Source: a bacterium 1XD42-54 (GTDB lineage Bacteria; Bacillota; Clostridia; Lachnospirales; Lachnospiraceae). Taken from it: a stretch of 64,000 nucleotides of DNA. The stretch spans positions 124,001 to 188,000 of the forward strand of contig RAZH01000004.1 in assembly GCA_003612585.1 (NCBI GenBank), read 5' to 3'. The notes beneath the pieces are model-generated. The model worked only from the letters and a program-made list of their open reading frames with translations. It ran no database searches and was not told the DNA's origin. This document shows positions 701-47,326 of this stretch, piece after piece. Made by a program: the position numbers and the translations under genes. Every line of letters starts with the position of its first letter. Position 1 is the stretch's first letter.

Positions 701-803
701 TTATTCTATCTCCTTCTAAATTTTTTTAATTTCCAAATCATTCACAAACACAATAACACCTATTTTTATGATAAAATATGTTATAATTTGTAAATTATTA
801 TCG

Positions 804-890
804 AAGTCAGCTCCCTGGCAGAATACCTGTCCGCGAGGTGACTTCTTTGTCGGAACCCCGCGGACAGGTATTCTGCCAGAGGGCGTCCGA
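804..890 (-). ncRNA. Candidate pseudoknotted stem-loop element, copy 1
   Basis: Between the DUF3786 gene and fchA. Read on the minus strand: flank TCGGACGCCC, a 21-bp perfect stem (arms 859-879 and 815-835), a 23-nt loop at 836-858 containing TTCCGACAAAGAAGTCA, and flank GGAGCTGACTT. The loop AAGTCA is complementary to the 3' flank TGACTT, and the loop TCCG to the 5' flank CGGA, so both flanks can fold back on the loop. The loop and flanks recur at 47214-47297 around an unrelated stem. No T-run follows it, so it is not a simple terminator. It begins about 8 nt after the DUF3786 stop. RNA versus DNA function is unknown. Confidence 0.65.
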
Positions 891-20799: not shown

Positions 20800-20837
20800 T
20801 CATCTTCTCCTTTTCTATCCTTTTTGTTATATAGCCA

Positions 20838-20847
20838 GTTCCGGAAC
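20838..20847. promoter_or_regulatory. Palindrome upstream of the GH3 gene
   Basis: A perfect 10-bp palindrome GTTCCGGAAC about 40 bp before the GH3 start, next to TATATA/TATAAC sequences that may be a -10 box on the minus strand. It may be an operator. The promoter itself is weak and uncertain. Confidence 0.3.
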
Positions 20848-20980
20848 TTTTATGGACAGCCCTTATAAAATGTACAGAAAAATGGGGAACTTGTTTGCAA
20901 CCCCGCTTTTATACATTTACCAGGAACATCCACTTTCATAAATATTCCGCAACAATCTGCTATCTAAAGCATGGTGCAGT

Positions 20981-47168: not shown

Positions 47169-47213
47169 TGTCTGTCACCTTTGTTGGGGCGGGTATTTGC
47201 GAAACAGTGTATG

Positions 47214-47297
47214 GCGGACGCCCCTGTAGAAGATACAAAAACGGGGTTCCGGCAAACAAGTCACCCCTTATTTTGTATCTTCTACAGGAGCTGACTT
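47214..47297 (+). ncRNA. Candidate pseudoknotted stem-loop element, copy 2
   Basis: Plus strand: flank GCGGACGCC, an 18-bp perfect stem (arms 47223-47240 and 47271-47288), inner GGGG/CCCC pairing around the loop TTCCGGCAAACAAGTCA, and flank AGCTGACTT. The loop and both flanks match copy 1 (804-890), but the stem sequence is unrelated. The same loop-to-flank complementarities (TCCG with CGGA, AAGTCA with TGACTT) are kept. It lies antisense to the leader of the ylxM-ffh operon and to ilvA. No clear plus-strand promoter or terminator is seen around it, so the transcribed strand is open. Confidence 0.65.
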
Positions 47298-47326
47298 TGA
47301 AATAGTTTCGTAACTGCCTGGTTGTT

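Follow-up and report, generated by a model that had tools for sequence, protein, structure and literature searches.

What keeps the two arms of a hairpin complementary when their sequence is free to change, and is it the RNA or the DNA that folds? The question is raised by two stem-loops in a 64,000-nucleotide stretch of a Lachnospiraceae genome (hereafter the window), which the initial annotation had described as sharing a loop and flanks around unrelated, perfectly palindromic stems. Both hairpins were found again in the sequence (Table 1), and their arms are indeed complementary, but over their whole length of 27–29 nt the arms are imperfect: near its foot, copy 1 carries a C-A and a T-G mismatch, and copy 2 contains an internal AC/TTA mismatch common to many copies. 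A third copy, overlooked at first, is decayed, with a loop that lacks TTCC and a partly broken stem. It lies ~30 nt upstream of a AAAGGAGA ribosome-binding site. With up to three mismatches, the 17-base loop motif matches the window at three places, two of them exactly, where shuffling gives an expectation of 0.58. Copy 1, on the minus strand, and copy 2, on the plus strand, are each flanked by two minus-strand genes. No terminal repeat is recognisable by eye at copy 1, and an orthologue of this copy is present in the sister species (L106).

Table 1. Copies of the hairpin element in the window and their parts; R1 and R2 are the models described in the text.
Feature	Position	Strand	Basis
Copy 1, core	802..888	minus	sequence; R1 match 794-891 minus, E 1e-24
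Copy 1, 5' foot GGAC	888-885	minus	
Copy 1, 5' arm, 29 nt	884-856	minus	
Copy 1, loop TTCCGACAAAGAAGTCA	855-839	minus	
Copy 1, 3' arm, 29 nt	838-810	minus	
Copy 1, 3' foot TGACTTCG	809-802	minus	
Copy 2, whole element	47190..47320	plus	sequence; R1 match 47213-47307 plus, E 2.7e-27
Copy 2, left end remnant CGGGTATTTGCGAAAC	47190-47205	plus	
Copy 2, 5' foot GGAC	47216-47219	plus	
Copy 2, 5' arm	47220-47246	plus	
Copy 2, loop	47247-47263	plus	
Copy 2, 3' arm	47264-47291	plus	
Copy 2, 3' foot TGACTTTG	47292-47299	plus	
Copy 2, right end remnant GTTTCGTAACTGCCTG	47305-47320	plus	
Copy 3, decayed	20832..20962	minus	sequence; R1 match 20843-20934 minus, E 2.9e-8; R2 match 20832-20962, E 0.006

The consensus consists of a 5' foot GGACG, an arm, a loop TTCC-(2–4 nt)-CAAACAAGTCA, the other arm and a 3' foot CTGACTTTG, the arms being 27–29 nt long in the copies measured by eye. 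Conservation was compared across 125 copies (30 from the window's own genome, G000, and 95 from the sister species, G060), leaving out copies near the end of a stretch, those with fewer than 13/20 arm matches and those that were near-identical. The middle is the least conserved part of the arm; conservation is higher in the outer CCCC and in the loop-adjacent stretch AAAAACGGGG / CCCCTTATTTT, within which the internal AC/TTA mismatch lies. The loop ends in AAGTCA in 112/125 copies, a figure flattered by the choice of copies by loop or core.

The initial annotation had held that a selected fold should recur in further copies whose stems covary around an unchanging loop and feet, and should lose credit if there were no more copies or if stems varied without pairing. 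Many such copies exist, and on both points the outcome is in its favour. With up to two mismatches, the loop motif occurs at 16 places in the own genome (6 exact, 4 with one mismatch and 6 with two), against 2 for its reversed control; two of the 16 (L013, L016) are without the element, and L004 is a half copy. In this half copy (G000:C11:594655), the loop and 3' arm are intact and unrelated sequence stands in place of the 5' arm. The 13 own-genome copies found by the loop motif, with L004, L013 and L016 excluded from the alignment (A1), served to build a covariance model, R1. R1 matches the own genome 41 times, or 39 without two reverse-strand echoes (the weakest matches may be chance), and the sister species (a Lachnospiraceae MAG, record CAOJHI) 121 times, or 115 without six echoes. 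The DNA flanking the copies is ~90% alike in the two species, and at least 13 copies, copy 1 among them, stand at common sites. Beyond this pair the element is rare. Within the genus, R1 is positive in 2/47 genomes, the own genome and G458, whose contig numbers and coordinates are identical to those of G060, and finds no match in the other 45 genomes examined; in a search of 60 relatives, the own genome alone was positive. Across 397 genomes of the family six are positive, including G244 and G217 from other genera. A pattern scan of genome contigs gave at least 116 stretches among the matches listed, and in the 12 scan loci inspected real copies occur solely in one Lachnospiraceae MAG. In viral contigs the loop pattern gives 32 candidate stretches, and neither a 23-base core pattern nor an 18-base end of the G217 element has a match; the G217 element is also without match in phage and plasmid records. 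No description of this element family was found in the titles and opening abstract lines of the papers that literature searches brought up.

In an alignment of 40 copies that had been fitted to the model, 25 of the 27 stem pairs are changed on both sides, and the covariation score of 0.729, against 0.181 when shuffled, was equalled in 0/500 shuffles; sliding the arms destroys the signal. Compensatory stem changes are expected for a DNA palindrome as well as for a structured RNA. The mismatches among the 2347 stem pairs of the 125 copies comprise 25 G-T, 35 A-C and 41 others, and those among the 920 pairs of 40 distinct G217 elements, from another genus, 4 G-T, 4 A-C and 5 others. As an RNA helix would tolerate G-U and not A-C, the roughly equal rarity of the two indicates that pairing is kept symmetrically, as in DNA; a contrary sign comes from the terminal repeats of the same 40 G217 elements, where 30 G-T stand against 11 A-C, mostly in two columns. 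The position relative to genes is mixed. Of 60 loci, counting L201 and L205 separately although they are a single place, 29 combine a gene start on the left with a gene end on the right and 15 show the opposite arrangement; 11 lie between two gene ends, 3 between two gene starts, and 2 have one neighbour missing. The similar frequencies of G-T and A-C and the mixed orientation together argue that pairing is maintained in DNA, not RNA. The paired stem proposed in the initial annotation is real, with very strong covariation behind it, but it appears to be kept as DNA rather than as an RNA fold.

The same counts bear on the suggestion that the copies are structured small RNAs or cis-regulatory RNAs, with a variable stem, a constant loop and one strand transcribed. 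The strong covariation around constant loop and feet is what such an RNA would show, the core is less diverged than its flanks between the two species (58/1059 sites against 125/1042), and changes in the 3' foot mainly leave wobble pairing with the loop. Yet G-T is not above A-C in the stems, gene orientation is not fixed, 45 of the 47 genomes of the genus are without the element, and both terminal repeats and target duplications are present in its relatives. A comparison with Rfam, recommended at the outset, points the same way, as neither the window nor L403, L404 or L231 contains a match at the gathering score of any family, and the hairpin-like matches at a loose threshold lie far below it, the best being a miRNA model with 34 bits where 94 are needed, on both strands. 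We consider an RNA very unlikely.

For the predicted double pseudoknot, loop and feet are complementary as letters only. Covariation is absent, and the loop varies too little among the examined copies for the loop–foot pairing to reveal any. In the 3' foot, a single pair cell is changed on both sides with pairing retained. Changes in this foot are mainly A to G and C to T, leaving wobble pairing in 65 cases against 10 A-C, an excess of the wobble type carried almost wholly by two columns. With a straight helix of 27–29 bp, the loop of a hairpin would be well out of reach of its own foot, and any such pairing would have to join different copies or require another conformation.

How a DNA palindrome keeps its arms matched can be followed between orthologues. 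Whole pairs have been replaced in three comparisons (two pairs in L179/L311 and one each in L171/L216 and L182/L220), and broken stem pairs are visible in L169/L208; RNAalifold, applied without L192, chooses pairs open to both orthologues, and little weight can be given to its '0 broken'. During replication, a switch of template from one inverted arm to the other can restore the arms or change them jointly, as set out in PMC8794818. Such switching would explain full Watson–Crick replacement without intermediates. Loop inversion, a mark of template switching, was seen in 0/125 copies, and the conservation of the internal mismatches speaks for selection on shape as well, at least for elements able to move. 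We rejected the idea that every new copy receives a rewritten stem: among the 95 copies of the sister species the similarity of arms is continuous, and gradual drift is enough. Similar arms are in excess there, 178/4465 pairs being alike at nine or more of 12 positions where ~58 are expected, and arm similarity is weakly linked to loop type (28/500 shuffles as high).

The origin of the element is clearest in relatives from other Lachnospiraceae genera, which are ~143 bp long and have TAGGYAATTGCGAAA ends and target duplications of 10–12 bp. In G217, the R1 match lies inside a 143-bp unit, TAGGTAATTGCGAAAGTC...GAGTTTCGCAAATGCCTA, and a spacing of exactly 143 bp separates the ends in 40/68 distinct pairs. 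Direct repeats scoring six or more, with a modal length of 11 bp, flank 35/56 of these elements; when the right flanks were shuffled 200 times, 1.15 elements on average and at most 6 had them. R1 matches element L231 of G217 at E 1.4e-11 and L403 of G405 at 3.7e-9, and has no match in L404, L416 and L400. L403, in a one-contig genome, has full ends, a loop TTCCG...AAGTCACC and, by eye, a 12-bp duplication. A second model, R2, built solely from 22 G217 elements with ends included, matches 17/30 loci of the own genome at E≤0.01 and is positive in 15/397 genomes; in the window it is without match at copy 1 and recognises copy 2 together with its ends (47190-47320, E 1.2e-8). R1 and R2 each match the other's family, which supports homology both ways. 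A strong Shine–Dalgarno-like word reading outward lies within 30 nt of 31/56 G217 elements and one reading inward of 0/56; the elements may be directed to promoters or leaders when they insert.

Several further features of the relatives deserve mention. Several target duplications in G217 (L242-L271, L398) resemble -10 boxes (e.g. TTGGCTATAATA). Among the 143-bp elements of G217 (L253, L260, L261, L262, L284, L285, L287), some carry a common extra insert of the GATTGGACATGAGGAGGGACCCACGAAGTGGGAGGAGTCCTGGTGTCA type in the loop and some a different one (CCCCGATTTTATATCGGGG) in one arm, as nested or modular elements; L287 (266-408, minus) is a mosaic with 5' and 3' arms from different subfamilies and a mismatched stem. 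In five Lachnospiraceae loci (L405, L406, L408, L410, L417), the same TAGG...GCGAAAC ends enclose quite different internal hairpins (elements of 117–212 bp), and with like ends around unlike hairpins, the combination of ends and internal hairpin recurs as a design.

A candidate for the enzyme comes from viral contigs. The end pattern TAGGYRATTGCGAAAC is found in 52 viral stretches, and in three of them two facing ends 1756–1796 bp apart enclose an open frame of 485–507 aa. All three have ends of the relatives' type: L458 (1796 bp, 485 aa) is flanked by a duplication of 10 in 11 bases by eye, L447 (1756 bp) by an exact 10-bp duplication and L471 (1767 bp) by none. By eye, the ends of copy 2 agree with those of the L458 insertion sequence at 13/16 and 12/16 bases. 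The encoded protein matches DUF772 (PF05598) above the Pfam cut-off and a DDE domain (PF13751) weakly, below the cut-off, and with 68.4 bits it stays below the NCBIfam cut-off of 270 for the IS1182 family. In a search with 7997 scored candidates, 3785 proteins among them, its homologues in Enterocloster carry the NCBI label 'ISNCY family transposase'. With tblastn, no transposase of the L458 type was found in the window or the fetched host stretches, the sequences to which this search was confined; PF01609, which is not the L458-type family, is absent from G000 and G060. Two other kinds of candidate were discarded: the one PF01609 transposase of G217 (L342) has no good end match, and the open frames between distant ends in L253, L268 and L272 are ordinary genes.

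The other proposal of the initial annotation, a DNA fold used by a mobile-element protein, thus comes nearer, as relatives have terminal repeats and target duplications. The rolling-circle type of protein that it named as one option fits less well, the relatives looking like substrates of DDE-type insertion sequences. An element of the IS200/IS605 or REP type, moved as single-stranded DNA by a Y1 transposase and with loop–foot complementarity serving as guide–target pairing, would share with these copies a hairpin with conserved feet and unpaired bases as well as that complementarity. Inverted terminal repeats and 10–12 bp duplications, however, are not known from Y1 elements, and both are found in the relatives; the Y1 transposase model PF01797 has 0 matches in the own genome, in a search that was positive in 5/14 control genomes. 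We regard such an element as extremely improbable. The ends and target duplications of the relatives, the insertion sequence with the same ends and the reciprocal model matches make it most likely that the copies are MITE-derived.

We thus think it probable that the copies are non-coding, MITE-derived mobile DNA, moved in trans by a transposase of the L458 type, with arms that are complementary as DNA. They are non-coding, dispersed and, at 131–143 bp, below the ~200 bp that delimit a MITE. A hairpin of fixed length, with conserved feet GGACG / CTGACTTTG, a conserved loop TTCC..CAAACAAGTCA and arms free in sequence, would lie between short inverted repeats of the TAGGYAATTGCGAAAC type at the termini, which in the host are mostly eroded. 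The L458-type transposase or a cousin would have moved these elements in trans; arm complementarity may have been kept in the DNA by template switching, by a need for the DNA hairpin itself, or by both, and such maintenance at the DNA level would result in the replacement of whole Watson–Crick pairs without G-U intermediates. A point against a MITE origin is that template switching should erase the conserved AC/TTA (A-C in G217) unless it is selected.

In the two host species, the probable mobile past would be visible as remnants. Left ends are recognisable in 22/116 copies against 3 in a control region and right ends in 32/116 against 4; the terminal repeats shared with the autonomous element are clear in G217 and G405 and eroded in most copies of the host pair. 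A target duplication flanks 0/118 of these copies (controls gave 3 in 20 shuffles). Such direct repeats wane with time, according to a review (PMC10969869). The copies are for this reason called MITE-derived, not active members. Among 30 loci corresponding to the site of copy 1, 2 have the element, 9 have the adjacent genes without it and 19 have no nearby second gene; in the 9 syntenic relatives, the intergenic DNA is too diverged to align or to date the insertion.

The divergence of cores and flanks raises the question of a later role. The counts given above cover 12 of the 13 common pairs (L192 was left out) and 45-nt flanks, and the core is less diverged than the flanks in 11/12 pairs, which could mean that it is still under selection; both copies of each pair had been found by the core, so that decayed cores are absent from the count. 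Selection may have retained former mobile copies as hairpins in the DNA on which a host protein acts, in a REP/BIME-like role, and besides the lower divergence this accords with some cores (L165/L196, L172/L295) that are identical or near-identical while the terminal repeats are eroded. Apart from the ascertainment, it is at odds with three pairs (L171, L179, L182) whose cores diverge about as much as their surroundings, with the similar divergence of loop (6.1%) and arms (4.6% and 5.1%), and with absence from nearly the whole genus, and we judge it unlikely. Also rather unlikely is the more specific idea that MITE hairpin cores were taken over as DNA sites in the two-species lineage and are read by a host protein in folded or looped form; selection would then act on feet, loop, internal mismatch and stem length, with the arm sequence free if paired as DNA, and recognition would perhaps proceed through loop–foot pairing between copies.

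A MITE-derived origin carries a warning for RNA discovery: a mobile DNA palindrome can yield near-perfect stem covariation and constant loops, a combination commonly regarded as the strongest proof that an RNA is functional. Counting G-T against A-C is a cheap way to separate the two. The Lachnospiraceae also gain an element superfamily with a likely transposase, numerous beside ribosome-binding sites, and the more than 100 copies in one genome are a natural data set on how palindromes keep their arms matched.

Among known systems, skipping-rope RNA and similar orphan RNAs have constant ends and a variable stem in outline, whereas the element described here has no Rfam match and keeps its stem without a preference for G-U. 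It resembles the REP/RAYT system in having many intergenic palindromes per genome but differs in that the own genome lacks a Y1 transposase and that its relatives are bounded by terminal inverted repeats and by target duplications. YPAL/RU-2 of Yersinia is described in PMC2229807 as an intergenic element of ~168 bp with internal inverted repeats and target duplications; a similar size, internal inverted repeats and an intergenic location are shared, as are, in the element's relatives, target duplications, but those of YPAL/RU-2 span 3–26 bp, and a constant loop with a variable stem is not in the section that describes it. Like the MITEs of bacterial insertion sequences, the element is short, non-coding and dispersed and forms a long stem-loop, and its relatives have insertion-sequence ends and 10–12 bp duplications; unlike them, it has an internal hairpin of fixed length, with constant loop and feet and freely varying arms, whose core in the host pair is still recognisable where the ends are not.
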